A DNA stretch of 64,000 nt, taken from Rallus limicola (lineage: Eukaryota > Chordata > Aves > Gruiformes > Rallidae). The stretch spans positions 1,647,155 to 1,711,154 of the forward strand of contig JAKCOZ010000083.1 in the NCBI GenBank assembly GCA_022605955.1, given 5' to 3'. Below the pieces are notes generated by a model. That model made no database searches, was not told the DNA's origin, and saw only the letters and a program-made list of their open reading frames with translations. The position numbers and the translations under genes were made by a program. Of this stretch, positions 4,057 to 52,209 are shown piece by piece (position 1 is the stretch's first letter; every line of letters starts with the position of its first letter).

Positions 4057-4127
4057 TGTCCTGTTAGGAGGTTTCAGACAAGCTATGCCTTTCAGGCCTA
4101 GCTTGTCTGAAACCTCCTAACAGGACA
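4057..4127. repeat. Palindromic junction 1, perfect arms
   Basis: Left arm 4057-4085 and right arm 4099-4127 are perfect 29-bp inverted copies around TGCCTTTCAGGCC. GCCT and AGGC in the centre can pair over a TTC loop, leaving one T/C mismatch. The inserted 47 bp is 4105-4151: an inverted 22-bp piece (4105-4126), then a second 25-bp quasi-palindrome with ATG instead of AGG (4127-4151). The right arm brings a TAA at 4118-4120 into the plus frame. Confidence 0.97.
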
Positions 4128-4499
4128 AGCTATGCCTTTCATGCCTAGCTTCTTTACTTTGGGAGTTATTGCTGGACGTTTAGCATGTTTTGAACTGCAG
4201 TCTGCTAGGGCCGAGAAAAGCACCGTAGGAGGTTCCAGGCATGTTCCCTCTTTCCAGGCAAAGGAAAAGGCTGAGAGCCAAAGTGACAGGGGCTGCTCGT
4301 GTGTCCTGTTAGGAGGTTTCAGACAAGCTATGCCTTTCAGGCCTAGCTTCTTTCCTTTGGGAGTTATTGCTGGACGTTTAGCATGTTTTGAACTGCAGTC
4401 TGCTAGGGCCGAGAAAAGCACCGTAGGAGGTTCCAGGCATGTTCCCTCTTTCCAGGCAAAGGAAAAGGCTGAGAGCCAAAGTGACAGGGTCTGCTCGTG

Positions 4500-4570
4500 T
4501 GTCCTGTTAGGAGGTTTCAGACAAGCTATGCCTTTCAGGCCTAGCTTGTCTGAAACCTCCTAACAGGACA
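4500..4570. repeat. Palindromic junction 2, perfect arms
   Basis: Perfect 29-bp arms and normal centre. It lies 443 bp (2 monomers + 47) after junction 1. The monomer just before it has TTTCCTTTGGG instead of TTTACTTTGGG, a variant that usually precedes inverted-centre junctions. Confidence 0.97.
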
Positions 4571-5322
4571 AGCTATGCCTTTCATGCCTAGCTTCTTTAC
4601 TTTGGGAGTTATTGCTGGACGTTTAGCATGTTTTGAACTGCAGTCTGCTAGGGCCGAGAAAAGCACCGTAGGAGGTTCCAGGCATGTTCCCTCTTTCCAG
4701 GCAAAGGAAAAGGCTGAGAGCCAAAGTGACAGGGTCTGCTCGTGTGTCCTGTTAGGAGGCTTCAGACAAGCTATGCCTTTCAGGCCTAGCTTCTTTACTT
4801 TGGGAGTTATTGCTGGACGTTTAGCATGTTTTGAACTGCAGTCTGCTAGGGCCGAGAAAAGCACCGTAGGAGGTTCCAGGCATGTTCCCTCTTTCCAGGC
4901 AAAGGAAAAGGCTGAGAACCAAAGTGACAGGGGCTGCTCGTGTGTCATGTTAGGAGGTTTCAGACAAGCTATGCCTTTCAGGCCTAGCTTCTTTACTTTG
5001 GGAGTTATTGCTGGACGTTTAGCATGTTTTGAATTGCAGTCTGCTAGGGCCGAGAAAAGCACCGTAGGAGGTTCCAGGCATGTTCCCTCTTTCCAGGCAA
5101 AGGAAAAGGCTGAGAGCCAAAGTGACAGGGTCTGCTCGTGTGTCCTGTTAGGAGGTTTCAGACAAGCTATGCCTTTCAGGCCTAGCTTCTTTACTTTGGG
5201 AGTTATTGCTGGACGTTTAGCATGTTTTGAACTGCAGTCTGCTAGGGCCGAGAAAAGCACCGTAGGAGGTTCCAGGCATGTTCCCTCTTTCCAGGCAAAG
5301 GAAAAGGCTGAGAGCCAAAGTG

Positions 5323-6118
5323 ACAGGTGCTGCTCATGTGTCCTGTTAGGAGGTTTCAGACAAGCTATGCCTTTCAGGCCTAGCTTCTTTACTTTGGGAG
5401 TTATTGCTGGACGTTTAGCATGTTTTGAGCTGCAGTCTGCTAGGGCCGAGAAAAGCACCGTAGGAGGTTCCAGGCATGTTCCCTCTTTCCAAGCAAAGGA
5501 AAAAGCTGAGAGCCAAAGTGACAGGGTTTGCTCGTGTGTCCTGTTAGGAGGTTTCAGACAAGCTATGCCTTTCAGGCCTAGCTTCTTTACTTTGGGAGTT
5601 ATTGCTGGACGTTTAGCATGTTTTGAGCTGCAGTCTGCTAGGGCCGAGAAAAGCACCGTAGGAGGTTCCAGGCATGTTCCCTCTTTCCAGGCAAAGGAAA
5701 AGGCTGAGAGCCAAAGTGACAGGGTCTGCTTGTGTGTCCTGTTAGGAGGTTTCCGAGAAGCTACGCCTTTCAGGCCTAGCTTCTTTACTTTGGGAGTTAT
5801 TGCTGGACGTTTAGCATGTTTTGAACTGCAGTCTGCTAGGTCCGAGAAAAGCACCGTAGGAGGTTCCAGGCATGTTCCCTCTTTCCAGGCAAAGGAAAAG
5901 GCTGAGAGCCAAAGTGACAGGGTCTGCTCGTGTGTCCTGTTAGGAGGTTTCAGACAAGCTATGCCTTTCAGGCCTAGCTTCTTTACTTTGGGAGTTATTG
6001 CTGGACGTTTAGCATGTTTTGAACTGCAGTCTGCTAGGGCCGAGAAAAGCACCGTAGGAGGTTCCAGGCATGTTCCCTCTTTCCAGGCAAAGGAAAAGGC
6101 TGAGAGCCAAAGTGACAG
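5323..6118 (+). repeat. CTACGCC-marked block, copy 2
   Basis: Same 792-bp spacing between ACAGGTGCTG markers as at 2655, with CCGAGAAGCTACGCC at about 5752-5767. It is 2,668 bp (13 monomers + 2 x 47) from copy 1, the two insertions being junctions 1 and 2. Confidence 0.88.
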
Positions 6119-6751
6119 GTGCTGCTCATGTGTCCTGTTAGGAGGTTTCAGACAAGCTATGCCTTTCAGGCCTAGCTTCTTTACTTTGGGAGTTATTGCT
6201 GGACGTTTAGCATGTTTTGAACTGCAGTCTGCTAGGGCCGAGAAAAGCACCGTAGGAGGTTCCAGGCATGTTCCCTCTTTCCAGGCAAAGGAAAAGGCTG
6301 AGAGCCAAAGTGACAGGGGCTGCTCGTGTGTCCTGTTAGGAGGTTTCAGACAAGCTATGCCTTTCAGGCCTAGCTTCTTTACTTTGGGAGTTATTGCTGG
6401 ACGTTTAGCATGTTTTGAACTGCAGTCTGCTAGGGCCGAGAAAAGCACCGTAGGAGGTTCCAGGCATGTTCCCTCTTTCCAGGCAAAGGAAAAGGCTGAG
6501 AGCCAAAGTGACAGGGGCTGCTCGTGTGTCCTGTTAGGAGGTTTCAGACAAGCTATGCCTTTCAGGCCTAGCTTCTTTCCTTTGGGAGTTATTGCTGGAC
6601 GTTTAGCATGTTTTGAACTGCAGTCTGCTAGGGCCGAGAAAAGCACCGTAGGAGGTTCCAGGCATGTTCCCTCTTTCCAGGCAAAGGAAAAGGCTGAGAG
6701 CCAAAGTGACAGGGTCTGCTCGTGTGTCCTGTTAGGAGGTTTCAGACAAGC

Positions 6752-6826
6752 TAGGCCTGAAAGGCATGTTCCCTCTTTCCAGGCAAAGGAAAAGGCTGAC
6801 AGCCAAAGTGACAGGGTCTGCTCGTG
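6752..6826. repeat. 102-bp partial monomer, copy 1
   Basis: Here AAGC is followed by TAGGCCTGAAAGGCAT, the reverse-complement orientation of the quasi-palindrome centre, and runs directly into GGCATGTTCCC. Compared with a normal monomer 96 bp are missing, leaving a 102-bp period. AGGCAT is shared by both flanks at the join, suggesting a microhomology deletion from an inverted-centre junction. The following GGCTGACAGCC (normally GGCTGAGAGCC) is a linked change. Confidence 0.9.
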
Positions 6827-6897
6827 TGTCCTGTTAGGATGTTTCAGACAAGCTATGCCTTTCAGGCCTAGCTTGTCTGAAACCTCCTAACAGGACA
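6827..6897. repeat. Palindromic junction 3, one arm mismatch
   Basis: Left arm has GGATGTTTCAG instead of GGAGGTTTCAG; right arm normal. It directly follows the 102-bp partial monomer. Its counterpart is junction 9, 8,699 bp downstream, with the same change. Confidence 0.95.
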
Positions 6898-7071
6898 AGC
6901 TATGCCTTTCATGCCTAGCTTCTTTACTTTGGGAGTTATTGCTGGACGTTTAGCATGTTTTGAACTGCAGTCTGCTAGGGCCGAGAAAAGCACCGTAGGA
7001 GGTTCCAGGCATGTTCCCTCTTTCCAGGCAAAGGAAAAGGCTGAGAGCCAAAGTGACAGGGTCTGCTCGTG

Positions 7072-7142
7072 TGTCCTGTTAGGAGGCTTCAGACAAGCTA
7101 TGCCTTTCAGGCCTAGCTTGTCTGAAACCTCCTAACAGGACA
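7072..7142. repeat. Palindromic junction 4, GGCTTC arm
   Basis: Left arm reads GGAGGCTTCAG (one mismatch to the right arm). It lies 245 bp (one monomer + 47) after junction 3. The next monomer carries CCCTTATTCC (7261-7270) instead of CCCTCTTTCC. Confidence 0.95.
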
Positions 7143-8504
7143 AGCTATGCCTTTCATGCCTAGCTTCTTTACTTTGGGAGTTATTGCTGGACGTTTAGCA
7201 TGTTTTGAACTGCAGTCTGCTAGGGCCGAGAAAAGCACCGTAGGAGGTTCCAGGCATGTTCCCTTATTCCAGGCAAAGGAAAAGGCTGAGAGCCAAAGTG
7301 ACAGGGTCTGCTCGTGTGTCCTGTTAGGAGGTTTCAGACAAGCTATGCCTTTCAGGCCTAGCTTCTTTACTTTGGGAGTTATTGCTGGACGTTTAGCATG
7401 TTTTGAACTGCAGTCTGCTAGGGCCGAGAAAAGCACCGTAGGAGGTTCCAGGCATGTTCCCTCTTTCCAGGCAAAGGAAAAGGCTGAGAGCCAAAGTGAC
7501 AGGGTCTGCTCGTGTGTCCTGTTAGGAGGTTTCAGACAAGCTATGCCTTTCAGGCCTAGCTTCTTTACTTTGGGAGTTATTGCTGGACGTTTAGCATGTT
7601 TTGAACTGCAGTCTGCTAGGGCCGAGAAAAGCACCGTAGGAGGTTCCAGGCATGTTCCCTCTTTCCAGGCAAAGGAAAAGGCTGAGAACCAAAGTGACAG
7701 GGGCTGCTCGTGTGTCATGTTAGGAGGTTTCAGACAAGCTATGCCTTTCAGGCCTAGCTTCTTTACTTTGGGAGTTATTGCTGGACGTTTAGCATGTTTT
7801 GAACTGCAGTCTGCTAGGGCCGAGAAAAGCACCGTAGGAGGTTCCAGGCATGTTCCCTCTTTCCAGGCAAAGGAAAAGGCTGAGAACCAAAGTGACAGGG
7901 GCTGCTCGTGTGTCATGTTAGGAGGTTTCAGACAAGCTATGCCTTTCAGGCCTAGCTTCTTTACTTTGGGAGTTATTGCTGGACGTTTAGCATGTTTTGA
8001 ACTGCAGTCTGCTAGGGCCGAGAAAAGCACCGTAGGAGGTTCCAGGCATGTTCCCTCTTTCCAGGCAAAGGAAAAGGCTGAGAGCCAAAGTGACAGGGGC
8101 TGCTCGTGTGTCCTGTTAGGAGGTTTCAGACAAGCTATGCCTTTCAGGCCTAGCTTCTTTACTTTGGGAGTTATTGCTGGACGTTTAGCATGTTTTGAAC
8201 TGCAGTCTGCTAGGGCCGAGAAAAGCACCGTAGGAGGTTCCAGGCATGTTCCCTCTTTCCAGGCAAAGGAAAAGGCTGAGAGCCAAAGTGACAGGGTCTG
8301 CTCGTGTGTCCTGTTAGGAGGTTTCAGACAAGCTATGCCTTTCAGGCCTAGCTTCTTTACTTTGGGAGTTATTGCTGGACGTTTAGCATGTTTTGAACTG
8401 CAGTCTGCTAGGGCCGAGAAAAGCACCGTAGGAGGTTCCAGGCATGTTCCCTCTTTCCAGGCAAAGGAAAAGGCTGAGAGCCAAAGTGACAGGGTCTGCT
8501 CGTG

Positions 8505-8575
8505 TGTCCTGTTAGGAGGCTTCAGACAAGCTATGCCTTTCAGGCCTAGCTTGTCTGAAACCTCCTAACAGGACA
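8505..8575. repeat. Palindromic junction 5, GGCTTC arm
   Basis: Left arm GGAGGCTTCAG; 1,433 bp (7 monomers + 47) after junction 4. Followed by the CCCTTATTCC variant near 8695. The next monomers carry CAGTCTTCTAGG and GGGAGGTATTGC, both repeated after junctions 11 and 30. Confidence 0.95.
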
Positions 8576-9343
8576 AGCTATGCCTTTCATGCCTAGCTTC
8601 TTTACTTTGGGAGTTATTGCTGGACGTTTAGCATGTTTTGAACTGCAGTCTGCTAGGGCCGAGAAAAGCACCGTAGGAGGTTCCAGGCATGTTCCCTTAT
8701 TCCAGGCAAAGGAAAAGGCTGAGAGCCAAAGTGACAGGGTCTGCTCGTGTGTCCTGTTAGGAGGTTTCAGACAAGCTATGCCTTTCAGGCCTAGCTTCTT
8801 TACTTTGGGAGTTATTGCTGGACGTTTAGCATGTTTTGAACTGCAGTCTTCTAGGGCCGAGAAAAGCACCGTAGGAGGTTCCAGGCATGTTCCCTCTTTC
8901 CAGGCAAAGGAAAAGGCTGAGAACCAAAGTGACAGGGGCTGCTCGTGTGTCCTGTTAGGAGGTTTCAGACAAGCTATGCCTTTCAGGCCTAGCTTCTTTA
9001 CTTTGGGAGGTATTGCTGGACGTTTAGCATGTTTTGAACTGCAGTCTGCTAGGGCCGAGAAAAGCACCGTAGGAGGTTCCAGGCACGTTCCCTCTTTCCA
9101 GGCAAAGGAAAAGGCTGAGAGCCAAAGTGACAGGGTCTGCTCGTGTGTCCTGTTAGGAGGTTTCAGACAAGCTATGCCTTTCAGGCCTAGCTTCTTTACT
9201 TTGGGAGTTATTGCTGGACGTTTAGCATGTTTTGAACTGCAGTCTGCTAGGGCCGAGAAAAGCACCGTAAGAGGTTCCAGGCATGTTCCCTCTTTCCAGG
9301 CAAAGGAAAAGGCTGAGAGCCAAAGTGACAGTGTCTGCTCGTG

Positions 9344-9414
9344 TGTCCTGTTAGGAGGTTTCAGACAAGCTATGCCTTTCAGGCCTAGCTTGTCTGAAAC
9401 CTCCTAACAGGACA
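9344..9414. repeat. Palindromic junction 6, perfect arms
   Basis: Perfect arms, normal centre; 839 bp (4 monomers + 47) after junction 5. The preceding monomer has GACAGTGTCTG and CCGTAAGAGG, both repeated before junction 12. Confidence 0.96.
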
Positions 9415-9786
9415 AGCTATGCCTTTCATGCCTAGCTTCTTTACTTTGGGAGTTATTGCTGGACGTTTAGCATGTTTTGAACTGCAGTCTGCTAGGGCCG
9501 AGAAAAGCACCGTAGGATGTTCCAGGCATGTTTCCTCTTTCCAGGCAAAGGAAAAGGCTGAGAGCCAAAGTGACAGGGTCTGCTCGTGTGTCCTGTTAGG
9601 AGGTTTCAGACAAGCTATGCCTTTCAGGCCTAGCTTCTTTACTTTGGGAGTTATTGCTGGACGTTTAGCATGTTTTGAACTGCAGTCTGCTAGGGCCGAG
9701 AAAAGCACCGTAGGAGGTTCCAGGCATGTTCCCTCTTTCCAGGCAAAGGAAAAGGCTGAGAGCCAAAGTGACAGTGTCTGCTCGTG

Positions 9787-9857
9787 TGTCCTGTTAGGAG
9801 GTTTCAGACAAGATATGCCTTTCAGGCCTAGCTTGTCTGAAACCTCCTAACAGGACA
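9787..9857. repeat. Palindromic junction 7, AAGATA arm
   Basis: The left arm ends AAGATA where the right arm needs AAGCTA, one mismatch close to the centre; 443 bp (2 monomers + 47) after junction 6. The same variant recurs at junctions 13, 21, 22 and 32. Confidence 0.96.
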
Positions 9858-11292
9858 AGCTATGCCTTTCATGCCTAGCTTCTTTACTTTGGGAGTTATT
9901 GCTGGACGTTTAGCATGTTTTGAACTGCAGTCTGCTAGGGCCGAGAAAAGCACCGTAGGAGGTTCCAGGCATGTTCCCTCTTTCCAGGCAAAGGAAAAGG
10001 CTGAGAGCCAAAGTGACAGGGTCTGCTCGTGTGTCCTGTTAGGAGGTTTCAGACAAGCTATGCCTTTCAGGCCTAGCTTCTTTACTTTGGGAGTTATTGC
10101 TGGACGTTTAGCATGTTTTGAACTGCAGTCTGCTAGGGCCGAGAAAAGCACCGTAGGAGGTTCCAGGCATGTTCCCTCTTTCCAGGCAAAGGAAAAGGCT
10201 GAGAGCCAAAGTGACAGGGTCTGCTCGGGTGTCCTGTTAGGAGGTTTCAGACAAGCTATGCCTTTCAGGCCTAGCTTCTTTACTTTGGGAGTTATTGCTG
10301 GACGTTTAGCATGTTTTGAACTGCAGTCTGCTAGGGCCGAGAAAAGCACCGTAGGAGGTTCCAGGCATGTTCCCTCTTTCCAGGCAAAGGAAAAGGCTGA
10401 GAGCCAAAGTGACAGGGGCTGCTCGTGTGTCCTGTTAGGAGGTTTCAGACAAGCTATGCCTTTCAGGCCTAGCTTCTTTACTTTGGGAGTTATTGCTGGA
10501 CGTTTAGCATGTTTTGAACTGCAGTCTGCTAGGGCCGAGAAAAGCACCGTAGGAGGTTCCAGGCATGTTCCCTCTTTCCAGGCAAAGGAAAAGGCTGAGA
10601 GCCAAAGTGACAGGGTCTGCTCGTGTGTCCTGTTAGGATGTTTCAGACAAGCTATGCCTTTCAGGCCTAGCTTCTTTACTTTGGGAGTTATTGCTGGACG
10701 TTTAGCATGTTTTGAACTGCAGTCTGCTAGGGCCGAGAAAAGCACCGTAGGAGGTTCCAGGCATGTTCCCTCTTTCCAGGCAAAGGAAAAGGCTGAGAGC
10801 CAAAGTGACAGGGTCTGCTCGTGTGTCCTGTTAGGAGGTTTCAGACAAGCTATGCCTTTCAGGCCTAGCTTCTTTACTTTGGGAGTTATTGCTGGACGTT
10901 TAGCATGTTTTGAACTGCAGTCTGCTAGGGCCGAGAAAAGCACCGTAGGAGGTTCCAGGCATGTTCCCTCTTTCCAGGCAAAGGAAAAGGCTGAGAGCCA
11001 AAGTGACAGGGGCTGCTCGTGTGTCCTGTTAGGAGGTTTCAGACAAGCTATGCCTTTCAGGCCTAGCTTCTTTACTTTGGGAGTTATTGCTGGACGTTTA
11101 GCATGTTTTGAACTGCAGTCTGCTAGGGCCGAGAAAAGCACCGTAGGAGGTTCCAGGCATGTTCCCTCTTTCCAGGCAAAGGAAAAGGCTGAGAGCCAAA
11201 GTGACAGGGTCTGCTCGTGTGTCCTGTTAGGAGGTTTCAGACAAGCTATGCCTTTCAGGCCTAGCTTCTTTACTTTGGGAGTTATTGCTGGA

Positions 11293-12480
11293 CATTTAGT
11301 ATGTTTTGAACTGCAGTCTGCTAGGGCCGAGAAAAGCACCGTAGGAGGTTCCAGGCATGTTCCCTCTTTCCAGGCAGAGGAAAAGGCTGAGAGCCAAAGT
11401 GACAGGGGCTGCTCGTGTGTCCTGTTAGGAGGTTTCAGACAAGCTATGCCTTTCAGGCCTAGCTTCTTTACTTTGGGAGTTATTGCTGGACGTTTAGCAT
11501 GTTTTGAACTGCAGTCTGCTAGGGCCGAGAAAAGCACCGTAGGAGGTTCCAGGCATGTTCCCTCTTTCCAGGCAAAGGAAAAGGCTGAGAGCCAAAGTGA
11601 CAGGGTCTGCTCGTGTGTCCTGTTAGGAGGTTTCAGACAAGCTATGCCTTTCAGGCCTAGCTTCTTTACTTTGGGAGTTATTGCTGGACGTTTAGCATGT
11701 TTTGAACTGCAGTCTGCTAGGGCCGAGAAAAGCACCGTAGGAGGTTCCAGGCATGTTCCCTCTTTCCAGGCAGAGGAAAAGGCTGAGAGCCAAAGTGACA
11801 GGGGCTGCTCGTGTGTCCTGTTAGGAGGTTTCAGACAAGCTATGCCTTTCATGCCTAGCTTCTTTACTTTGGGAGTTATTGCTGGACGTTTAGCATGTTT
11901 TGAACTGCAGTCTGCTAGGGCCGAGAAAAGCACCGTAGGAGGTTCCAGGCATGTTCCCTCTTTCCAGGCAAAGGAAAAGGCTGAGAGCCAAAGTGACAGG
12001 GTCTGCTCGTGTGTCCTGTTAGGAGGTTTCAGACAAGCTATGCCTTTCAGGCCTAGCTTCTTTACTTTGGGAGTTATTGCTGGACGTTTAGCATGTTTTG
12101 AACTGCAGTCTGCTAGGGCCGAGAAAAGCACCGTAGGAGGTTCCAGGCATGTTCCCTCTTTCCAGGCAAAGGAAAAGGCTGAGAGCCAAAGTGACAGGGG
12201 CTGCTCGTGTGTCCTGTTAGGAGGTTTCAGACAAGCTATGCCTTTCAGGCCTAGCTTCTTTACTTTGGGAGTTATTGCTGGACGTTTAGCATGTTTTGAA
12301 CTGCAGTCTGCTAGGGCCGAGAAAAGCACCGTAGGAGGTTCCAGGCATGTTCCCTCTTTCCAGGCAAAGGAAAAGGCTGAGAGCCAAAGTGACAGGGTCT
12401 GCTCGTGTGTCCTGTTAGGAGGTTTCAGACAAGCTATGCCTTTCAGGCCTAGCTTCTTTACTTTGGGAGTTATTGCTGGA
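11293..12480 (+). repeat. Six-monomer (1188-bp) tandem duplicate, first unit
   Basis: Starts at the rare GACATTTAGTATG variant, continues through AGGCAGAGG and an ATG-type centre (near 11851), and repeats in the same order 1,188 bp later. Copy B has only one such unit, which accounts for its interval being 17 monomers rather than 23. Confidence 0.87.
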
Positions 12481-13667
12481 CATTTAGTATGTTTTGAACT
12501 GCAGTCTGCTAGGGCCGAGAAAAGCACCGTAGGAGGTTCCAGGCATGTTCCCTCTTTCCAGGCAGAGGAAAAGGCTGAGAGCCAAAGTGACAGGGGCTGC
12601 TCGTGTGTCCTGTTAGGAGGTTTCAGACAAGCTATGCCTTTCAGGCCTAGCTTCTTTACTTTGGGAGTTATTGCTGGACGTTTAGCATGTTTTGAACTGC
12701 AGTCTGCTAGGGCCGAGAAAAGCACCGTAGGAGGTTCCAGGCATGTTCCCTCTTTCCAGGCAAAGGAAAAGGCTGAGAGCCAAAGTGACAGGGTCTGCTC
12801 GTGTGTCCTGTTAGGAGGTTTCAGACAAGCTATGCCTTTCAGGCCTAGCTTCTTTACTTTGGGAGTTATTGCTGGACGTTTAGCATGTTTTGAACTGCAG
12901 TCTGCTAGGGCCGAGAAAAGCACCGTAGGAGGTTCCAGGCATGTTCCCTCTTTCCAGGCAGAGGAAAAGGCTGAGAACCAAAGTGACAGGGGCTGCTCGT
13001 GTGTCCTGTTAGGAGGTTTCAGACAAGCTATGCCTTTCATGCCTAGCTTCTTTACTTTGGGAGTTATTGCTGGACGTTTAGCATGTTTTGAACTGCAGTC
13101 TGCTAGGGCCGAGAAAAGCACCGTAGGAGGTTCCAGGCATGTTCCCTCTTTCCAGGCAAAGGAAAAGGCTGAGAGCCAAAGTGACAGCGTCTGCTTTGTG
13201 TCCTGTTAGGAGGTTTCAGACAAGCTATGCCTTTCATGCCTAGCTTCTTTACTTTGGGAGTTATTGCTGGACGTTTAGCATGTTTTGAACTGCAGTCTGC
13301 TAGGGCCGAGAAAAGCACCGTAGGAGGTTCCAGGCATGTTCCCTCTTTCCAGGCAAAGGAAAAGGCTGAGAGCCAAAGTGACAGGGTCTGCTCGTGTGTC
13401 CTGTTAGGAGGTTTCAGACAAGCTATGCCTTTCAGGCCTAGCTTCTTTACTTTGGGAGTTATTGCTGGACGTTTAGCATGTTTTGAACTGCAGTCTGCTA
13501 GGGCCGAGAAAAGCACCGTAGGAGGTTCCAGGCATGTTCCCTCTTTCCAGGCAAAGGAAAAGGCTGAGAGCCAAAGTGACACGGGCTGCTCGTGTGTCCT
13601 GTTAGGAGGTTTCAGACAAGCTATGCCTTTCAGGCCTAGCTTCTTTACTTTGGGAGTTATTGCTGGA
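12481..13667 (+). repeat. Six-monomer tandem duplicate, second unit
   Basis: Second unit of the same series, with the variants in the same order. It is one base shorter because it holds the single-base deletion near 13194. Confidence 0.85.
13181..13205 (+). other. Single-base-deletion marker, copy A
   Basis: GACAGCGTCTGCTTTGTGTCC replaces the usual GACAGGGTCTGCTCGTGTGTCC form: G to C in the first part and one base lost in the second. It shifts the plus frame to a stop at 13209. The same event occurs near 20890, 36953 and 46530, so those blocks descend from one ancestor. Confidence 0.93.
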
Positions 13668-14386
13668 CGTTTAGCATGTTTTGAACTGCAGTCTGCTAGG
13701 GCCGAGAAAAGCACCGTAGGAGGTTCCAGGCATGTTCCCTCTTTCCAGGCAAAGGAAAAGGCTGAGAGCCAAAGTGACAGGGGCTGCTCGTGTGTCCTGT
13801 TAGGAGGTTTCAGACAAGCTATGCCTTTCAGGCCTAGCTTCTTTACTTTGGGAGTTATTGCTGGACGTTTAGCATGTTTTGAACTGCAGTCTGCTAGGGC
13901 CGAGAAAAGCACCGTAGGAGGTTCCAGGCATGTTCCCTCTTTCCAGGCAAAGGAAAAGGCTGAGAACCAAAGTGACAGGGGCTGCTCGTGTGTCATGTTA
14001 GGAGGTTTCAGACAAGCTATGCCTTTCAGGCCTAGCTTCTTTACTTTGGGAGTTATTGCTGGACGTTTAGCATGTTTTGAATTGCAGTCTGCTAGGGCCG
14101 AGAAAAGCACCGTAGGAGGTTCCAGGCATGTTCCCTCTTTCCAGGCAAAGGAAAAGGCTGAGAGCCAAAGTGACAGGGTCTGCTCGTGTGTCCTGTTAGG
14201 AGGTTTCAGACAAGCTATGCCTTTCAGGCCTAGCTTCTTTCCTTTGGGAGTTATTGCTGGACGTTTAGCATGTTTTGAACTGCAGTCTGCTAGGGCCGAG
14301 AAAAGCACCGTAGGAGGTTCCAGGCATGTTCCCTCTTTCCAGGCAAAGGAAAAGGCTGAGAGCCAAAGTGACAGGGTCTGCTCGTG

Positions 14387-14457
14387 TGTCCTGTTAGGAG
14401 GTTTCAGACAAGCTAGGCCTGAAAGGCATAGCTTGTCTGAAACCTCCTAACAGGACA
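14387..14457. repeat. Palindromic junction 8, inverted centre
   Basis: Perfect 29-bp arms, but the 13-bp centre reads GGCCTGAAAGGCA, the reverse complement of the normal centre. It lies 4,600 bp (23 monomers + 47 - 1) after junction 7. The downstream quasi-palindrome has a private change, AAGCTAAGCC. The preceding monomer has TTTCCTTTGGG. Confidence 0.96.
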
Positions 14458-22166: not shown

Positions 22167-22170
22167 AGCT

Positions 22171-41434: not shown

Positions 41435-41608
41435 AGCTATGCCTTTCATGCCTAGCTTCTTTACTTTGGGAGTTATTGCTGGACGTTTAGCATGTTTTGA
41501 ACTGCAGTCTGCTAGGGCCGAGAAAAGCACCGTAGGAGGTTCCAGGCATGTTCCCTCTTTCCAGGCAAAGGAAAAGGCTGAGAGCCAAAGTGACAGGGTC
41601 TGCTCGTG

Positions 41609-41679
41609 TGTCCTGTTAGGAGGATTCAGACAAGCTATGCCTTTCAGGCCTAGCTTGTCTGAAACCTCCTAACAGGACA
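41609..41679. repeat. Palindromic junction 29, one arm mismatch
   Basis: Left arm GGAGGATTCAG, a private state at the position that is C in the GGCTTC class. One monomer + 47 after junction 28. Followed by CCCTTATTCC near 41799. Confidence 0.95.
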
Positions 41680-43239: not shown

Positions 43240-43310
43240 TGTCCTGTTAGGAGGCTTCAGACAAGCTATGCCTTTCAGGCCTAGCTTGTCTGAAACCTCC
43301 TAACAGGAAA
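43240..43310. repeat. Palindromic junction 30, two arm mismatches
   Basis: Left arm GGAGGCTTCAG; right arm ends CAGGAAA instead of CAGGACA. 8 monomers + 47 after junction 29. Followed by the CCTTATTCC, CAGTCTTCTAGG and GGGAGGTATTGC series also seen after junctions 5 and 11. Confidence 0.94.
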
Positions 43311-44276
43311 AGCTATGCCTTTCATGCCTAGCTTCTTTACTTTGGGAGTTATTGCTGGACGTTTAGCATGTTTTGAACTGCAGTCTGCTAGGGCCGAGAA
43401 AAGCACCGTAGGAGGTTCCAGGCATGTTCCCTTATTCCAGGCAAAGGAAAAGGCTGAGAGCCAAAGTGACAGGGTCTGCTCGTGTGTCCTGTTAGGAGGT
43501 TTCAGACAAGCTATGCCTTTCAGGCCTAGCTTCTTTACTTTGGGAGTTATTGCTGGACGTTTAGCATGTTTTGAACTGCAGTCTTCTAGGGCCGAGAAAA
43601 GCACCGTAGGAGGTTCCAGGCATGTTCCCTCTTTCCAGGCAAAGGAAAAGGCTGAGAACCAAAGTGACAGGGGCTGCTCGTGTGTCCTGTTAGGAGGTTT
43701 CAGACAAGCTATGCCTTTCAGGCCTAGCTTCTTTACTTTGGGAGGTATTGCTGGACGTTTAGCATGTTTTGAACTGCAGTCTGCTAGGGCCGAGAAAAGC
43801 ACCGTAGGAGGTTCCAGGCACGTTCCCTCTTTCCAGGCAAAGGAAAAGGCTGAGAGCCAAAGTGACAGGGTCTGCTCGTCTGTCCTGTTAGGAGGTTTCA
43901 GACAAGCTATGCCTTTCAGGCCTAGCTTCTTTACTTTGGGAGTTATTGCTGGACGTTTAGCATGTTTTGAACTGCAGTCTGCTAGGTCCGAGAAAAGCAC
44001 CGTAGGAGGTTCCAGGCATGTTCCCTCTTTCCAGGCAAAGGAAAAGGCTGAGAGCCAAAGTGACAGGGTCTGCTCGTGTGTCCTGTTAGGAGGTTTCAGA
44101 CAAGCTATGCCTTTCAGGCCTAGCTTCTTTACTTTGGGAGTTATTGCTGGACGTTTAGCATGTTTTGAACTGCAGTCTGCTAGGGCCGAGAAAAGCACCG
44201 TAAGAGGTTCCAGGCATGTTCCCTCTTTCCAGGCAAAGGAAAAGGCTGAGAGCCAAAGTGACAGAGTCTGCTCGTG

Positions 44277-44347
44277 TGTCCTGTTAGGAGGTTTCAGACA
44301 AGCTATGCCTTTCAGGCCTAGCTTGTCTGAAACCTCCTAACAGGACA
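44277..44347. repeat. Palindromic junction 31, perfect arms
   Basis: Perfect arms; 5 monomers + 47 after junction 30. The preceding monomer has GACAGAGTCTG where the counterparts have GACAGTGTCTG, plus the same CCGTAAGAGG. Confidence 0.96.
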
Positions 44348-44719
44348 AGCTATGCCTTTCATGCCTAGCTTCTTTACTTTGGGAGTTATTGCTGGACGTT
44401 TAGCATGTTTTGAACTGCAGTCTGCTAGGGCCGAGAAAAGCACCGTAGGAGGTTCCAGGCATGTTCCCTCTTTCCAGGCAAAGGAAAAGGCTGAGAGCCA
44501 AAGTGACAGGGTCTGCTCGTGTGTCCTGTTAGGAGGTTTCAGACAAGCTATGCCTTTCAGGCCTAGCTTCTTTACTTTGGGAGTTATTGCTGGACGTTTA
44601 GCATGTTTTGAACTGCAGTCTGCTAGGGCCGAGAAAAGCACCGTAGGAGGTTCCAGGCATGTTCCCTCTTTCCAGGCAAAGGAAAAGGCTGAGAGCCAAA
44701 GTGACAGGGTCTGCTCGTG

Positions 44720-44790
44720 TGTCCTGTTAGGAGGTTTCAGACAAGATATGCCTTTCAGGCCTAGCTTGTCTGAAACCTCCTAACAGGACA
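44720..44790. repeat. Palindromic junction 32, AAGATA arm
   Basis: Left arm ends AAGATA, one mismatch; 2 monomers + 47 after junction 31. Counterpart of junctions 7, 13 and 22. Confidence 0.95.
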
Positions 44791-46529
44791 AGCTATGCCT
44801 TTCATGCCTAGCTTCTTTACTTTGGGAGTTATTGCTGGACGTTTAGCATGTTTTGAACTGCAGTCTGCTAGGGCCGAGAAAAGCACCGTAGGAGGTTCCA
44901 GGCATGTTCCCTCTTTCCAGGCAAAGGAAAAGGCTGAGAGCCAAAGTGACAGGGTCTGCTCGTGTGTCCTGTTAGGAGGTTTCAGACAAGCTATGCCTTT
45001 CAGGCCTAGCTTCTTTACTTTGGGAGTTATTGCTGGACGTTTAGCATGTTTTGAACTGCAGTCTGCTAGGGCCGAGAAAAGCACCGTAGGAGGTTCCAGG
45101 CATGTTCCCTCTTTCCAGGCAAAGGAAAAGGCTGAGAGCCAAAGTGACAGGGTCTGCTCGGGTGTCCTGTTAGGAGGTTTCAGACAAGCTATGCCTTTCA
45201 GGCCTAGCTTCTTTACTTTGGGAGTTATTGCTGGACGTTTAGCATGTTTTGAACTGCAGTCTGCTAGGGCCGAGAAAAGCACCGTAGGAGGTTCCAGGCA
45301 TGTTCCCTCTTTCCAGGCAAAGGAAAAGGCTGAGAGCCAAAGTGACAGGGGCTGCTCGTGTGTCCTGTTAGGAGGTTTCAGACAAGCTATGCCTTTCAGG
45401 CCTAGCTTCTTTACTTTGGGAGTTATTGCTGGACGTTTAGCATGTTTTGAACTGCAGTCTGCTAGGGCCGAGAAAAGCACCGTAGGAGGTTCCAGGCATG
45501 TTCCCTCTTTCCAGGCAAAGGAAAAGGCTGAGAGCCAAAGTGACAGGGTCTGCTCGTGTGTCCTGTTAGGAGGTTTCAGACAAGCTATGCCTTTCAGGCC
45601 TAGCTTCTTTACTTTGGGAGTTATTGCTGGACGTTTAGCATGTTTTGAAATGCAGTCTGCTAGGGCAGAGAAAAGCACCGTAGGAGGTTCCAGGCATGTT
45701 CCCTCTTTCCAGGCAAAGGAAAAGGCTGAGAGCCAAAGTGACAGGGTCTGCTCGTGTGTCCTGTTAGGAGGTTTCAGACAAGCTATGCCTTTCAGGCCTA
45801 GCTTCTTTACTTTGGGAGTTATTGCTGGACGTTTAGCATGTTTTGAACTGCAGTCTGCTAGGGCCGAGAAAAGCACCGTAGGAGGTTCCAGGCATGTTCC
45901 CTCTTTCCAGGCAAAGGAAAAGGCTGAGAGCCAAAGTGACAGGGGCTGCTCGTGTGTCCTGTTAGGAGGTTTCAGACAAGCTATGCCTTTCAGGCCTAGC
46001 TTCTTTACTTTGGGAGTTATTGCTGGACGTTTAGCATGTTTTGAACTGCAGTCTGCTAGGGCCGAGAAAAGCACCGTAGGAGGTTCCAGGCATGTTCCCT
46101 CTTTCCAGGCAAAGGAAAAGGCTGAGAGCCAAAGTGACAGGGTCTGCTCGTGTGTCCTGTTAGGAGGTTTCAGACAAGCTATGCCTTTCAGGCCTAGCTT
46201 CTTTACTTTGGGAGTTATTGCTGGACGTTTAGCATGTTTTGAACTGCAGTCTGCTAGGGCCGAGAAAAGCACCGTAGGAGGTTCCAGGCATGTTCCCTCT
46301 TTCCAGGCAGAGGAAAAGGCTGAGAGCCAAAGTGACAGGGGCTGCTCGTGTGTCCTGTTAGGAGGTTTCAGACAAGCTATGCCTTTCAGGCCTAGCTTCT
46401 TTACTTTGGGAGTTATTGCTGGACGTTTAGCATGTTTTGAACTGCAGTCTGCTAGGGCCGAGAAAAGCACCGTAGGAGGTTCCAGGCATGTTCCCTCTTT
46501 CCAGGCAAAGGAAAAGGCTGAGAGCCAAA

Positions 46530-46554
46530 GTGACAGCGTCTGCTTTGTGTCCTG
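46530..46554 (+). other. Single-base-deletion marker, copy E
   Basis: Fourth occurrence of the GACAGCGTCTGCTTTG event. Distance from its frame stop (46558) to the next junction's stop (48987) is 2,429 bp, six monomers more than in copies A and B. Confidence 0.92.
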
Positions 46555-47246
46555 TTAGGAGGTTTCAGACAAGCTATGCCTTTCATGCCTAGCTTCTTTA
46601 CTTTGGGAGTTATTGCTGGACGTTTAGCATGTTTTGAACTGCAGTCTGCTAGGGCCGAGAAAAGCACCGTAGGAGGTTCCAGGCATGTTCCCTCTTTCCA
46701 GGCAAAGGAAAAGGCTGAGAGCCAAAGTGACAGGGTCTGCTCGTGTGTCCTGTTAGGAGGTTTCAGACAAGCTATGCCTTTCAGGCCTAGCTTCTTTACT
46801 TTGGGAGTTATTGCTGGACGTTTAGCATGTTTTGAGCTGCAGTCTGCTAGGGCCGAGAAAAGCACCGTAGGAGGTTCCAGGCATGTTCCCTCTTTCCAGG
46901 CAAAGGAAAAGGCTGAGAGCCAAAGTGACACGGGCTGCTCGTGTGTCCTGTTAGGAGGTTTCAGACAAGCTATGCCTTTCAGGCCTAGCTTCTTTACTTT
47001 GGGAGTTATTGCTGGACGTTTAGCATGTTTTGAACTGCAGTCTGCTAGGTCCGAGAAAAGCACCGTAGGAGGTTCCAGGCATGTTCCCTCTTTCCAGGCA
47101 AAGGAAAAGGCTGAGAGCCAAAGTGACAGGGGCTGCTCGTGTGTCCTGTTAGGAGGTTTCAGACAAGCTATGCCTTTCAGGCCTAGCTTCTTTACTTTGG
47201 GAGTTATTGCTGGACGTTTAGCATGTTTTGAACTGCAGTCTGCTAG

Positions 47247-47256
47247 GGCTTAGAAA
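47247..47256 (+). other. GGCTTAG variant monomer
   Basis: Third occurrence, followed closely by GGAGGTTGCAGGC, a combination shared only with the copy at 50461. Confidence 0.9.
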
Positions 47257-47323
47257 AGCACCGTAGGAGGTTGCAGGCATGTTCCCTCTTTCCAGGCAAA
47301 GGAAAAGGCTGAGAGCCAAAGTG

Positions 47324-48119
47324 ACAGGTGCTGCTCATGTGTCCTGTTAGGAGGTTTCAGACAAGCTATGCCTTTCAGGCCTAGCTTCTTTACTTTGGGA
47401 GTTATTGCTGGACGTTTAGCATGTTTTGAGCTGCAGTCTGCTAGGGCCGAGAAAAGCACCGTAGGAGGTTCCAGGCATGTTCCCTCTTTCCAAGCAAAGG
47501 AAAAAGCTGAGAGCCAAAGTGACAGGGTTTGCTCGTGTGTCCTGTTAGGAGGTTTCAGACAAGCTATGCCTTTCAGGCCTAGCTTCTTTACTTTGGGAGT
47601 TATTGCTGGACGTTTAGCATGTTTTGAGCTGCAGTCTGCTAGGGCCGAGAAAAGCACCGTAGGAGGTTCCAGGCATGTTCCCTCTTTCCAGGCAAAGGAA
47701 AAGGCTGAGAGCCAAAGTGACAGGGTCTGCTTGTGTGTCCTGTTAGGAGGTTTCCGAGAAGCTACGCCTTTCAGGCCTAGCTTCTTTACTTTGGGAGTTA
47801 TTGCTGGACGTTTAGCATGTTTTGAACTGCAGTCTGCTAGGTCCGAGAAAAGCACCGTAGGAGGTTCCAGGCATGTTCCCTCTTTCCAGGCAAAGGAAAA
47901 GGCTGAGAGCCAAAGTGACAGGGTCTGCTCGTGTGTCCTGTTAGGAGGTTTCAGACAAGCTATGCCTTTCAGGCCTAGCTTCTTTACTTTGGGAGTTATT
48001 GCTGGACGTTTAGCATGTTTTGAACTGCAGTCTGCTAGGGCCGAGAAAAGCACCGTAGGAGGTTCCAGGCATGTTCCCTCTTTCCAGGCAAAGGAAAAGG
48101 CTGAGAGCCAAAGTGACAG
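47324..48119 (+). repeat. CTACGCC-marked block, copy 4
   Basis: ACAGGTGCTG markers at 47324 and 48116, with CCGAGAAGCTACGCC at about 47753-47768. The second marker monomer has GCTCGTG rather than the linked GCTCATG, a local reversion or conversion. Confidence 0.88.
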
Positions 48120-48923
48120 GTGCTGCTCGTGTGTCCTGTTAGGAGGTTTCAGACAAGCTATGCCTTTCAGGCCTAGCTTCTTTACTTTGGGAGTTATTGC
48201 TGGACGTTTAGCATGTTTTGAACTGCAGTCTGCTAGGGCCGAGAAAAGCACCGTAGGAGGTTCCAGGCATGTTCCCTCTTTCCAGGCAAAGGAAAAGGCT
48301 GAGAGCCAAAGTGACAGGGGCTGCTCGTGTGTCCTGTTAGGAGGTTTCAGACAAGCTATGCCTTTCAGGCCTAGCTTCTTTACTTTGGGAGTTATTGCTG
48401 GACGTTTAGCATGTTTTGAACTGCAGTCTGCTAGGGCCGAGAAAAGCACCGTAGGAGGTTCCAGGCATGTTCCCTCTTTCCAGGCAAAGGAAAAGGCTGA
48501 GAACCAAAGTGACAGGGGCTGCTCGTGTGTCATGTTAGGAGGTTTCAGACAAGCTATGCCTTTCAGGCCTAGCTTCTTTACTTTGGGAGTTATTGCTGGA
48601 CGTTTAGCATGTTTTGAATTGCAGTCTGCTAGGGCCGAGAAAAGCACCGTAGGAGGTTCCAGGCATGTTCCCTCTTTCCAGGCAAAGGAAAAGGCTGAGA
48701 GCCAAAGTGACAGGGTCTGCTCGTGTGTCCTGTTAGGAGGTTTCAGACAAGCTATGCCTTTCAGGCCTAGCTTCTTTCCTTTGGGAGTTATTGCTGGACG
48801 TTTAGCATGTTTTGAACTGCAGTCTGCTAGGGCCGAGAAAAGCACCGTAGGAGGTTCCAGGCATGTTCCCTCTTTCCAGGCAAAGGAAAAGGCTGAGAGC
48901 CAAAGTGACAGGGTCTGCTCGTG

Positions 48924-48994
48924 TGTCCTGTTAGGAGGTTTCAGACAAGCTAGGCCTGAAAGGCATAGCTTGTCTGAAACCTCCTAACAGGACA
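48924..48994. repeat. Palindromic junction 33, inverted centre
   Basis: Perfect arms, centre GGCCTGAAAGGCA; 21 monomers + 47 - 1 after junction 32. Preceded by TTTCCTTTGGG. Confidence 0.96.
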
Positions 48995-50460
48995 AGCTAT
49001 GCCTTTCATGCCTAGCTTCTTTACTTTGGGAGTTATTGCTGGACGTTTAGCATGTTTTGAACTGCAGTCTGCTAGGGCCGAGAAAAGCACCGTAGGAGGT
49101 TCCAGGCATGTTCCCTCTTTCCAGGCAAAGGAAAAGGCTGAGAGCCAAAGTGACAGGGTCTGCTCGTGTGTCCTGTTAGGAGGTTTCAGACAAGCTATGC
49201 CTTTCAGGCCTAGCTTCTTTACTTTGGGAGTTATTGCTGGACGTTTAGCATGTTTTGAACTGCAGTCTGCTAGGGCCGAGAAAAGCACCGTAGGAGGTTC
49301 CAGGCATGTTCCCTCTTTCCAGGCAAAGGAAAAGGCTGAGAGCCAAAGTGACAGGGGCTGCTCGTGTGTCCTGTTAGGAGGTTTCAGACAAGCTATGCCT
49401 TTCAGGCCTAGCTTCTTTACTTTGGGAGTTATTGCTGGACGTTTAGCATGTTTTGAACTGCAGTCTGCTAGGGCCGAGAAAAGCACCGTAGGAGGTTCCA
49501 GGCATGTTCCCTCTTTCCAGGCAAAGGAAAAGGCTGAGAACCAAAGTGACAGGGGCTGCTCGTGTGTCATGTTAGGAGGTTTCAGACAAGCTATGCCTTT
49601 CAGGCCTAGCTTCTTTACTTTGGGAGTTATTGCTGGACGTTTAGCATGTTTTGAATTGCAGTCTGCTAGGGCCGAGAAAAGCACCGTAGGAGGTTCCAGG
49701 CATGTTCCCTCTTTCCAGGCAAAGGAAAAGGCTGAGAGCCAAAGTGACAGGGTCTGCTCGTGTGTCCTGTTAGGAGGTTTCAGACAAGCTATGCCTTTCA
49801 GGCCTAGCTTCTTTCCTTTGGGAGTTATTGCTGGACGTTTAGCATGTTTTGAACTGCAGTCTGCTAGGGCCGAGAAAAGCACCGTAGGAGGTTCCAGGCA
49901 TGTTCCCTCTTTCCAGGCAAAGGAAAAGGCTGAGAGCCAAAGTGACAGGGTCTGCTCGTGTGTCCTGTTAGGAGGTTTCAGACAAGCTATGCCTTTCAGG
50001 CCTAGCTTCTTTACTTTGGGAGTTATTGCTGGACGTTTAGCATGTTTTGAACTGCAGTCTGCTAGGGCCGAGAAAAGCACCGTAGGAGGTTCCAGGCATG
50101 TTCCCTCTTTCCAGGCAAAGGAAAAGGCTGAGAGCCAAAGTGACACGGGCTGCTCGTGTGTCCTGTTAGGAGGTTTCAGACAAGCTATGCCTTTCAGGCC
50201 TAGCTTCTTTACTTTGGGAGTTATTGCTGGACGTTTAGCATGTTTTGAACTGCAGTCTGCTAGGGCCGAGAAAAGCACCGTAGGAGGTTCCAGGCATGTT
50301 CCCTCTTTCCAGGCAAAGGAAAAGGCTGAGAGCCAAAGTGACAGGGGCTGCTCGTGTGTCCTGTTAGGAGGTTTCAGACAAGCTATGCCTTTCAGGCCTA
50401 GCTTCTTTACTTTGGGAGTTATTGCTGGACGTTTAGCATGTTTTGAACTGCAGTCTGCTA

Positions 50461-50470
50461 GGGCTTAGAA
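50461..50470 (+). other. GGCTTAG variant monomer
   Basis: Fourth occurrence, again with GGTTGCAGGC just downstream, exactly 3,215 bp after the third. Confidence 0.9.
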
Positions 50471-50538
50471 AAGCACCGTAGGAGGTTGCAGGCATGTTCC
50501 CTCTTTCCAGGCAAAGGAAAAGGCTGAGAGCCAAAGTG

Positions 50539-51334
50539 ACAGGTGCTGCTCATGTGTCCTGTTAGGAGGTTTCAGACAAGCTATGCCTTTCAGGCCTAGC
50601 TTCTTTACTTTGGGAGTTATTGCTGGACGTTTAGCATGTTTTGAGCTGCAGTCTGCTAGGGCCGAGAAAAGCACCGTAGGAGGTTCCAGGCATGTTCCCT
50701 CTTTCCAAGCAAAGGAAAAAGCTGAGAGCCAAAGTGACAGGGTTTGCTCGTGTGTCCTGTTAGGAGGTTTCAGACAAGCTATGCCTTTCAGGCCTAGCTT
50801 CTTTACTTTGGGAGTTATTGCTGGACGTTTAGCATGTTTTGAGCTGCAGTCTGCTAGGGCCGAGAAAAGCACCGTAGGAGGTTCCAGGCATGTTCCCTCT
50901 TTCCAGGCAAAGGAAAAGGCTGAGAGCCAAAGTGACAGGGTCTGCTTGTGTGTCCTGTTAGGAGGTTTCCGAGAAGCTACGCCTTTCAGGCCTAGCTTCT
51001 TTACTTTGGGAGTTATTGCTGGACGTTTAGCATGTTTTGAACTGCAGTCTGCTAGGGCCGAGAAAAGCACCGTAGGAGGTTCCAGGCATGTTCCCTCTTT
51101 CCAGGCAAAGGAAAAGGCTGAGAGCCAAAGTGACAGGGTCTGCTCGTGTGTCCTGTTAGGAGGTTTCAGACAAGCTATGCCTTTCAGGCCTAGCTTCTTT
51201 ACTTTGGGAGTTATTGCTGGACGTTTAGCATGTTTTGAACTGCAGTCTGCTAGGGCCGAGAAAAGCACCGTAGGAGGTTCCAGGCATGTTCCCTCTTTCC
51301 AGGCAAAGGAAAAGGCTGAGAGCCAAAGTGACAG
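50539..51334 (+). repeat. CTACGCC-marked block, copy 5
   Basis: ACAGGTGCTG markers at 50539 and 51331, with CCGAGAAGCTACGCC at about 50969-50984. The following monomer has GGGCCGAG where the other four copies have GGTCCGAG. Confidence 0.88.
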
Positions 51335-52138
51335 GTGCTGCTCATGTGTCCTGTTAGGAGGTTTCAGACAAGCTATGCCTTTCAGGCCTAGCTTCTTTAC
51401 TTTGGGAGTTATTGCTGGACGTTTAGCATGTTTTGAACTGCAGTCTGCTAGGGCCGAGAAAAGCACCGTAGGAGGTTCCAGGCATGTTCCCTCTTTCCAG
51501 GCAAAGGAAAAGGCTGAGAGCCAAAGTGACAGGGGCTGCTCGTGTGTCCTGTTAGGAGGTTTCAGACAAGCTATGCCTTTCAGGCCTAGCTTCTTTACTT
51601 TGGGAGTTATTGCTGGACGTTTAGCATGTTTTGAACTGCAGTCTGCTAGGGCCGAGAAAAGCACCGTAGGAGGTTCCAGGCATGTTCCCTCTTTCCAGGC
51701 AAAGGAAAAGGCTGAGAACCAAAGTGACAGGGGCTGCTCGTGTGTCATGTTAGGAGGTTTCAGACAAGCTATGCCTTTCAGGCCTAGCTTCTTTACTTTG
51801 GGAGTTATTGCTGGACGTTTAGCATGTTTTGAATTGCAGTCTGCTAGGGCCGAGAAAAGCACCGTAGGAGGTTCCAGGCATGTTCCCTCTTTCCAGGCAA
51901 AGGAAAAGGCTGAGAGCCAAAGTGACAGGGTCTGCTCGTGTGTCCTGTTAGGAGGTTTCAGACAAGCTATGCCTTTCAGGCCTAGCTTCTTTCCTTTGGG
52001 AGTTATTGCTGGACGTTTAGCATGTTTTGAACTGCAGTCTGCTAGGGCCGAGAAAAGCACCGTAGGAGGTTCCAGGCATGTTCCCTCTTTCCAGGCAAAG
52101 GAAAAGGCTGAGAGCCAAAGTGACAGGGTCTGCTCGTG

Positions 52139-52209
52139 TGTCCTGTTAGGAGGTTTCAGACAAGCTAGGCCTGAAAGGCATAGCTTGTCTGAAACCTCCT
52201 AACAGGACA
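52139..52209. repeat. Palindromic junction 34, inverted centre, last in window
   Basis: Perfect arms, centre GGCCTGAAAGGCA; 16 monomers + 47 after junction 33. No further palindromic junction is found in the remaining 11.8 kb. Confidence 0.96.

Follow-up and report, generated by a model that had tools for sequence, protein, structure and literature searches.

The window (i.e. the whole stretch of 64,000 nucleotides analyzed here) is the final 64 kb of a 1.71-Mb contig and is occupied by a tandem satellite. Splitting the array yielded 313 units, 274 of them 198 bp long with a mean divergence from their consensus of 0.85%. A 31-mer used to check the strand had no copy on the reverse strand in the window or in 25 further 10-kb samples (250 kb) of the same contig. 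Exact counting in the 1.4-Gb assembly gave 818,708 copies of the satellite (419,337 in one orientation and 399,371 in the other) and 470,583 of the intact plain form. The array, an example each of the hairpin and of the insert discussed below, and two junctions with an inverted loop are located as follows.

1..64000, forward strand, 198-bp satellite array with all monomers in the same direction (split into units; 31-mer strand check)
3882..3906, forward strand, parental hairpin of a plain monomer (example), AAGCTAtGCCTttcAGGCcTAGCTT (from the sequence)
4105..4151, forward strand, 47-bp insert (example), composed of a 20-bp inverted copy and a 27-bp direct repeat (from the sequence and the template-switch model)
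6748..6767, reverse strand, inverted loop segment with AGGCAT at its end, joined to upstream monomer sequence and giving a 102-bp duplication (6660-6860)
15447..15466, reverse strand, the inverted-loop junction a second time, likewise with a 102-bp duplication (15359-15559; position from monomer start 15309)

Palindromes in the window

The monomer has a hairpin of its own, AAGCTAtGCCTttcAGGCcTAGCTT, with 6-bp arms (AAGCTA/TAGCTT) and a 13-nt loop. A plain 71-nt stretch (3863-3933) forms this hairpin when folded (-7.2 kcal/mol), and 17 of 200 shuffles were as good; with 20 of 120 shuffles as good in another test, exceptional strength of the hairpin was rejected. Exceptional conservation was rejected as well, 14 of the 198 windows of 25 columns being less variable.

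A sequence-only reading had described 34 palindromes of 71 bp (29-bp arms around a 13-bp centre), which our recount bore out, from the first at 4057-4127 to the last at 52139-52209. Its division into 18 palindromes with perfect arms and 16 imperfect ones (14 with one mismatch and two with two) was likewise reproduced, as were the 47 extra bases, which are present in every palindromic monomer (32 of 245 bp and two of 347 bp, both of the latter holding a further 102 bp). The centre can pair as GCCT-TTC-AGGC, as described, but it is inverted in six of the 34 palindromes (GGCCTGAAAGGCA), which the earlier reading had missed. The palindromes, none of which is assigned to a strand, are:

4057..4127, palindrome, no arm mismatch
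4500..4570, palindrome, no arm mismatch, forward loop
6827..6897, palindrome, one arm mismatch
7072..7142, palindrome, one arm mismatch
8505..8575, palindrome, one arm mismatch
9344..9414, palindrome, no arm mismatch
9787..9857, palindrome, one arm mismatch
14387..14457, palindrome, no arm mismatch, inverted loop
15526..15596, palindrome, one arm mismatch
15771..15841, palindrome, one arm mismatch
17204..17274, palindrome, one arm mismatch
18241..18311, palindrome, no arm mismatch
18684..18754, palindrome, one arm mismatch, both pair partners changed and still unpaired
22096..22166, palindrome, no arm mismatch, inverted loop
25509..25579, palindrome, no arm mismatch, equals the one-template-switch product of the consensus
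26546..26616, palindrome, no arm mismatch
27583..27653, palindrome, no arm mismatch
28026..28096, palindrome, one arm mismatch
30646..30716, palindrome, no arm mismatch
32475..32545, palindrome, one arm mismatch
33314..33384, palindrome, one arm mismatch
33757..33827, palindrome, one arm mismatch
38753..38823, palindrome, no arm mismatch
39196..39266, palindrome, no arm mismatch, inverted loop, neighbouring monomer types shared with the forward-loop palindrome at 4500
39837..39907, palindrome, no arm mismatch
40280..40350, palindrome, no arm mismatch, inverted loop
40525..40595, palindrome, two arm mismatches
41364..41434, palindrome, no arm mismatch
41609..41679, palindrome, one arm mismatch
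43240..43310, palindrome, two arm mismatches
44277..44347, palindrome, no arm mismatch
44720..44790, palindrome, one arm mismatch
48924..48994, palindrome, no arm mismatch, inverted loop
52139..52209, palindrome, no arm mismatch, inverted loop

Folding, which covered three of the 34 palindromes, supports the claim that these dyads can form hairpins: folded as a DNA strand, the palindrome at 4057 reached -37.9 kcal/mol compared with -7.3 kcal/mol (sd 2.1) in 200 shuffles, none of which was as good, and the predicted fold is not due to chance. Indirect support comes from the excess of inverted loops in palindromes described below.

Origin of the 47-bp insert

The earlier reading took the 47 bp for a recurrent insertion; they are a rearranged piece of the monomer, spread at least in part by block duplication. 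The insert is made of sequence of the 198-bp monomer, 20 bp of it as an inverted copy and 27 bp as a direct repeat, with the hairpin AAGCTAtGCCTttcAGGCcTAGCTT as the centre. A small mobile element or other foreign DNA repeatedly entering one site would agree with the breakpoints, which are identical in all copies of the window, but this explanation is in effect refuted, because the host monomer accounts for every base of the insert; what flanks it as a direct repeat is nothing other than the hairpin. Foreign sequence with a target-site duplication, as in a miniature transposon, was not found in the wholly monomer-derived insert; there was no match in Rfam, no blastn match to phages and plasmids and no exact match of pieces to viral and prokaryote contigs.

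The consensus plain monomer was used as ancestor in the switch modelling, plain monomers being taken as ancestral because they outnumber the palindromes. A single modelled template switch on this consensus gives the insert exactly, and its one-step products are the palindrome, the inverted-loop form of the palindrome, a mirror palindrome, a flip of the plain loop and an inner flip. Two natural monomers (position 25394 of the window and position 9240 of sample L023) are letter for letter identical with the predicted palindromic product, and the natural mirror unit that was compared departs from the model solely by four flanking point mutations. For one switch with one return, the number of equivalent solutions is 35 (left palindrome), 28 (mirror form) and 49 (plain loop flip). 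The inverted segment matches the reverse complement of sequence close by exactly, a single switch and return on the ancestor produce it, and the sequences for both steps pre-exist in the monomer: the 6-bp arms where the strand leaves its template and GACA where it comes back. Reverse-strand segments of at least 10 bp numbered 23 distinct ones in 314 kb, 22 of which lie at the hairpin AAGCTAtGCCTttcAGGCcTAGCTT or its palindromes and do not represent 22 events, because many are mutated copies of one palindrome; the remaining segment (L007:7353) lies in non-satellite DNA.

The palindromes are probably footprints of short-range template switching at the monomer hairpin, multiplied afterwards by amplification of the array. 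In the mechanism that we propose, a polymerase would copy the hairpin of the 198-bp monomer, the new strand would fold back on its AAGCTA/TAGCTT arms or pair with the sister strand, 19-29 bases would be copied backwards, and the strand would re-pair with the original template at the 4-base microhomology GACA, whereby the hairpin would be copied again. Block duplication or unequal exchange would then spread the product, whose newly formed 29-bp arms may have raised the rate at which the loop inverts. The explanation does not require any cellular function.

Several observations count against template switching, among them the ordinary strength of the hairpin noted above. The two hairpin copies differ (CAGGCC, then CATGCC) in 31 of the 32 245-bp units of the window and in 104 of the 109 from the 314-kb sample. 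CATGCC is found in the second hairpin copy of 33 of the 34 palindromes, including both 347-bp units, the only case with CAGGCC being the palindrome at 25509..25579; it is also present in 96 of 1,312 plain 198-bp monomers. One switch confined to one monomer would leave the copies alike, and so either a copy has changed afterwards or the strand returned to a different monomer. Template switching between arms corrects arm mismatches according to two reports (PMC5677150, PMC8604942). Such correction, which accompanies switching in some reports and which a single event does not need, was not seen among 135 palindromes: each of the 60 whose arms are perfect had the original arm sequence, a test in which correction restoring the original sequence would be invisible, and none of seven pairs changed on both sides had re-paired. 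The lack of correction in these sequences speaks against ongoing switching.

The same products would arise from fold-back repair after a double-strand break (a self-primed hairpin end returning to the template by microhomology) or from recombination between inverted monomers, and the satellite does occur in both orientations in the assembly. The inserts are short, the return is in phase within tens of bases, and the array is unidirectional in the window and the 25 samples of its contig (C83), all of which makes repair or recombination rather unlikely compared with switching during replication; by sequence, the two cannot be fully separated.

Distribution in the contig and the genome

The palindromes had been thought to be confined to 4.1-52.2 kb, which does not hold for the contig: 19 of the 25 samples taken from the rest of the 1.71-Mb contig (10 kb each) contain them, with 28 in the 50 kb adjoining the window upstream (L001-L005) and 100 in all 25 samples (250 kb). 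The final 59 units of the window are free of palindromes (p 0.0006 under random placement). The spread is uneven elsewhere too, the left type being absent from six of the 25 samples.

The palindromes were also said to sit at repeatable places in a higher-order pattern, which is correct in the sense of shared blocks but not otherwise. A fixed higher-order period was rejected for the window, where exact monomer-type agreement never exceeded 0.15 among offsets of up to 199 monomers; block alignment found blocks, and no multi-monomer unit with a fixed period was seen. Fifteen block alignments in the window, which overlap one another, matched palindrome with palindrome in 24 pairs and palindrome with plain monomer in nine; palindromes are therefore lost or newly gained. 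This sharing shows that the 47-bp insert spread at least in part by duplication of array blocks. Palindromes are difficult to sequence and satellites difficult to assemble, but an assembly or sequencing artefact is very improbable given the 77 distinct sequences among the sample's 128 palindromic units of 245 bp, the occurrence of palindromes on both strands and several contigs, and the array blocks that they share with plain neighbours.

Genome-wide, exact counts gave 17,091 junctions of the left palindrome with forward loop in the 1.4-Gb assembly, 1,596 copies with inverted loop, 26 mirror-image palindromes on six contigs, 69 plain monomers with the 13-nt loop inverted on 21 contigs, and 21 inversions of the 3-nt inner loop on 13 contigs. 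All these forms lie at the hairpin AAGCTAtGCCTttcAGGCcTAGCTT, where the switch mechanism predicts such rearrangements. Longer symmetric palindromes had seemed a large share of the inverted-loop count (three of seven jointly listed sites), an idea rejected by the direct count of only six. The loop is inverted ~580 times as often in palindromes as in plain monomers (8.5% vs 0.015%), a figure that, like all genome-wide counts given here, refers to copies and not to events. An excess of this kind is expected from the pairing of long arms; amplification of a few flips could produce it too, and correction of arms, as said, was not observed. Deletion of the 47 bp from an inverted-loop palindrome would leave something resembling a plain flip, therefore the 69 plain flips need not be independent switches. 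The weaker hairpin of the monomer (5-bp arms) showed no loop flips genome-wide, and its intact 36-mer was equally common in the 314-kb sample (1,183 vs 1,087).

Discussion

Selection might instead keep the palindromes because cruciform extrusion helps to lay down centromere chromatin. The predicted fold is strong, the palindrome is found on several contigs, and centromeric enrichment of dyad symmetries has been described for several taxa (PMC13081366, PMC9070824). We consider this quite improbable, since palindromes make up only ~2% of the satellite by exact counts (17,091 vs 818,708), and in the assembly listing in contig order they start at contig C20 although the satellite is already present on C1. 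Moreover, arm mismatches affect 16 of the 34 palindromes in the window with no compensating changes among the 135 in the sample, and the monomer has stretches more conserved than the hairpin (the 14 less variable windows mentioned above). The core of the CENP-B box is NTTCGNNNNANNCGGGN; with no match at up to one mismatch, the window lacks a CENP-B-like box and hence the mark of a CENP-B-box satellite. Template switching offers a concrete origin for a satellite dyad without assuming centromere function; it is also a caution that such symmetry may arise in satellites as a mere side effect of mutation.

Published studies describe related systems. In rad27-deleted yeast, fold-back of the nascent strand leads to palindrome expansion and DNA amplification (PMC5677150); there as here a short inverted repeat seeds the fold-back, the palindrome grows, and the return point of the strand on the template sets the amount of amplified DNA. 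That system concerns mutant lines and includes correction of quasi-palindrome arms, whereas here a natural satellite carries ~17,000 exact copies and no correction was seen. Spacers of inverted repeats in S. cerevisiae invert by template switching (PMC8604942), which resembles the recurring loop flips between intact arms, but those spacers measure 2-5 bp and lie in protein-coding genes, whereas the loop here has 13 nt and belongs to a tandem repeat, in which 69 copies carry it flipped with 6-bp arms. Hairpins of template-switch origin such as MIR633 (PMC8794818) likewise gained a new stem in one event followed by loop inversion in a lineage; they are RNA genes, whereas the satellite has no known transcript. 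(Peri)centromeric satellites of Tribolium with dyad symmetry (PMC13081366) also have inverted parts able to form long hairpins, but their dyad lies in the repeat or in whole subarrays and not in a minority monomer variant. Within the accessible portions of the open-licence literature (including PMC10813616, PMC7463522 and PMC13393857) we found no report of template-switch palindromes in satellites, which is weak evidence of absence. The type of mutation is already known; the satellite setting and the copy number are new.

One genome provides a large natural data set, in which plain copies number in the hundreds of thousands and palindromic ones in the thousands; the influence of arm length on template switching and on loop inversion could be studied with it. 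Tentatively, and with appreciable doubt, the array might be a natural recorder of hairpin formation in vivo: loops of palindromes with 29-bp arms would flip repeatedly, the inverted fractions given above would measure the effect of arm length on structure formation, and a single hairpin would have steered the evolution of the satellite by successive switches in both directions.

The satellite and its parental hairpin

The window forms the final 64 kb of contig C83 (1,711,154 bp), in an assembly of 1.395 Gb and 1,102 contigs. It consists of a single 198-bp satellite array with all monomers in the same direction. A monomer 31-mer occurs in 818,708 exact copies assembly-wide, about equally on both strands, which by arithmetic (818,708 x 198 bp) gives the satellite about 162 Mb, near 12% of the 1.4-Gb assembly. 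Plain monomers, i.e. those without the 47-bp insert, carry the hairpin AAGCTAtGCCTttcAGGCcTAGCTT with 6-bp arms and an inner 4-bp stem. In the 314-kb sample (the window plus L001-L025, 10-kb stretches elsewhere on C83), it was exact in 1,092 of 1,312 plain 198-bp monomers and had at most one mismatch in 1,300. Among the perfect inverted repeats of the consensus (spacer up to 20) it ranks as the longest, and among its local 31-nt folds as the most stable; shuffles were equally good in 20 of 120 cases, so this stability is not unusual. At about 6,430-10,000 of sample L007 (C83 about 106.4-110 kb) non-satellite DNA replaces the array; it contains an open frame of 603 aa (7150-8961) that has no Pfam match and looks gag-like.

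Number and distribution of the palindromes

An inverted-repeat scan (29-13-29) recovered the 34 palindromes counted in the sequence-only reading, with 0, 1 or 2 arm mismatches in 18, 14 and 2 of them; the hosts are 32 monomers of 245 bp and two of 347 bp. The single-stranded fold of the palindrome at 4057 reaches -37.9 kcal/mol, compared with -7.3 for shuffles. The same reading had confined the palindromes to 4.1-52.2 kb, which proved incorrect: the class is present in 19 of the 25 other C83 samples (100 left-type palindromes in 250 kb), and the assembly contains 17,091 exact copies of the right-hand junction. Among the matches listed (100, in contig order), the earliest junctions are on contigs C20 and C31, despite the presence of the satellite on C1, indicating an uneven distribution between contigs.

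Composition of the 47-bp insert

Of the extra bases, the first 20 are left flank in inverted form (GTCTGAAACCTCCTAACAGG) and the remaining 27 repeat the hairpin. A single template switch, leaving within TAGCTT and returning within GACA, turns the consensus into exactly this product, which two natural monomers match letter for letter. The sequence only partly distinguishes replication switching of this kind from fold-back break repair. The two hairpin copies differ, with CAGGCC in the first and CATGCC in the second, in 31 of 32 245-bp units of the window and in 104 of 109 of the sample; since one switch confined to a single monomer would give equal copies, this calls for a later change or for a return onto a different monomer. 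In the sample, 96 of 1,312 plain 198-bp monomers also have CATGCC, either as an older variant or as relics of palindrome loss. Five window monomers are one base short (197 bp; 13085, 20794, 28354, 36857 and 46434), and those at 13085, 20794 and 46434 contain CATGCC.

Template switching has elsewhere been reported to correct mismatched arms; counting against that origin here, the 135 left palindromes of the sample gave no sign of such correction. The 60 with perfect arms all have the original sequence; of the changes, 83 are one-sided and seven two-sided, none of these seven restoring a pair.

Other rearrangements at the same hairpin

Scanning the 314 kb for reverse-strand segments of at least 10 bp gave 23 distinct segments, one in non-satellite DNA and 22 at the hairpin or its palindromes, many of the latter being mutated copies of the same palindrome.

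Classes of rearrangement at the hairpin (314-kb scan and genome-wide counts)
Left palindrome: a class among the hairpin segments of the 314-kb scan
Mirror palindrome, with a 42-bp insert that repeats the right flank on the left side: 4 in L011; genome-wide 26, over 6 contigs
Inverted 13-nt loop within palindromes: 8 of the sample's 128 units, with three mutation backgrounds among them; 1,596 genome-wide
Inverted loop with an AGGCAT junction to upstream sequence and a resulting 102-bp duplication: two copies in the window
Plain monomer with the inner TTC flipped to GAA: 1 in the sample; genome-wide 21, over 13 contigs
Single-base changes perfecting the quasi-palindrome: 314-kb scan; may be chance

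Six sites on three contigs carry a longer, symmetric 79-bp palindrome, the product expected of a second extension round. Three of these, spaced about 4 kb apart, lie at C31:8,898,188-8,906,317 and extend the window's type further. Twelve mirror palindromes lie at C83:500,150-524,224 (L011 and beyond), and 6 of the 11 steps between neighbours measure 1,824-1,830 bp, as if a nine-monomer unit carried them.

Genome-wide, the intact plain hairpin with its flanks occurs 470,583 times and its inverted-loop version 69 times on 21 contigs; palindromes have the forward loop in 17,091 cases and the inverted loop in 1,596 (the latter less 6 symmetric sites). The inverted-loop fraction is 8.5% in palindromes versus 0.015% in plain monomers, about 580-fold, in a count of copies that a few amplified flips could inflate on either side and in which an inverted-loop palindrome after insert loss would score as a plain flip. 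The monomer's other hairpin, with arms of 5 bp and a loop of 7 nt, served as a control: its flipped-loop form had no match genome-wide, while its intact form is as frequent in the sample as that of the main hairpin (1,183 versus 1,087).

Spread through the array

Self-alignment of the window by point mutations gave 15 overlapping blocks. In the best, offset by 8,699 bp and 36 monomer pairs long, six pairs are palindrome-palindrome and none is palindrome-plain; the two 347-bp units were scored by length and hence help to anchor it. All 15 blocks together contain 24 palindrome-palindrome pairs and nine, in disagreement, of palindrome with plain. One slot with equal neighbouring monomer types has the forward loop at 4500 and the inverted loop at 39196, so the loop was either flipped in place or changed by a short conversion.

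Comparison with known systems

The satellite events are alike in kind to those described in three papers: palindrome expansion with amplification in rad27-deleted yeast (PMC5677150), inversion of the spacer that separates inverted-repeat arms (PMC8604942), and hairpin origin by template switch with later loop inversion (PMC8794818). The literature surveyed showed no report of such template-switch events in satellite arrays. In a great-ape survey (PMC7954356), the donor fragment had to be unmasked by RepeatMasker, a rule by which such events within masked satellites would be missed. As far as these sources extend, the mutation type is therefore already known and the satellite example is new.
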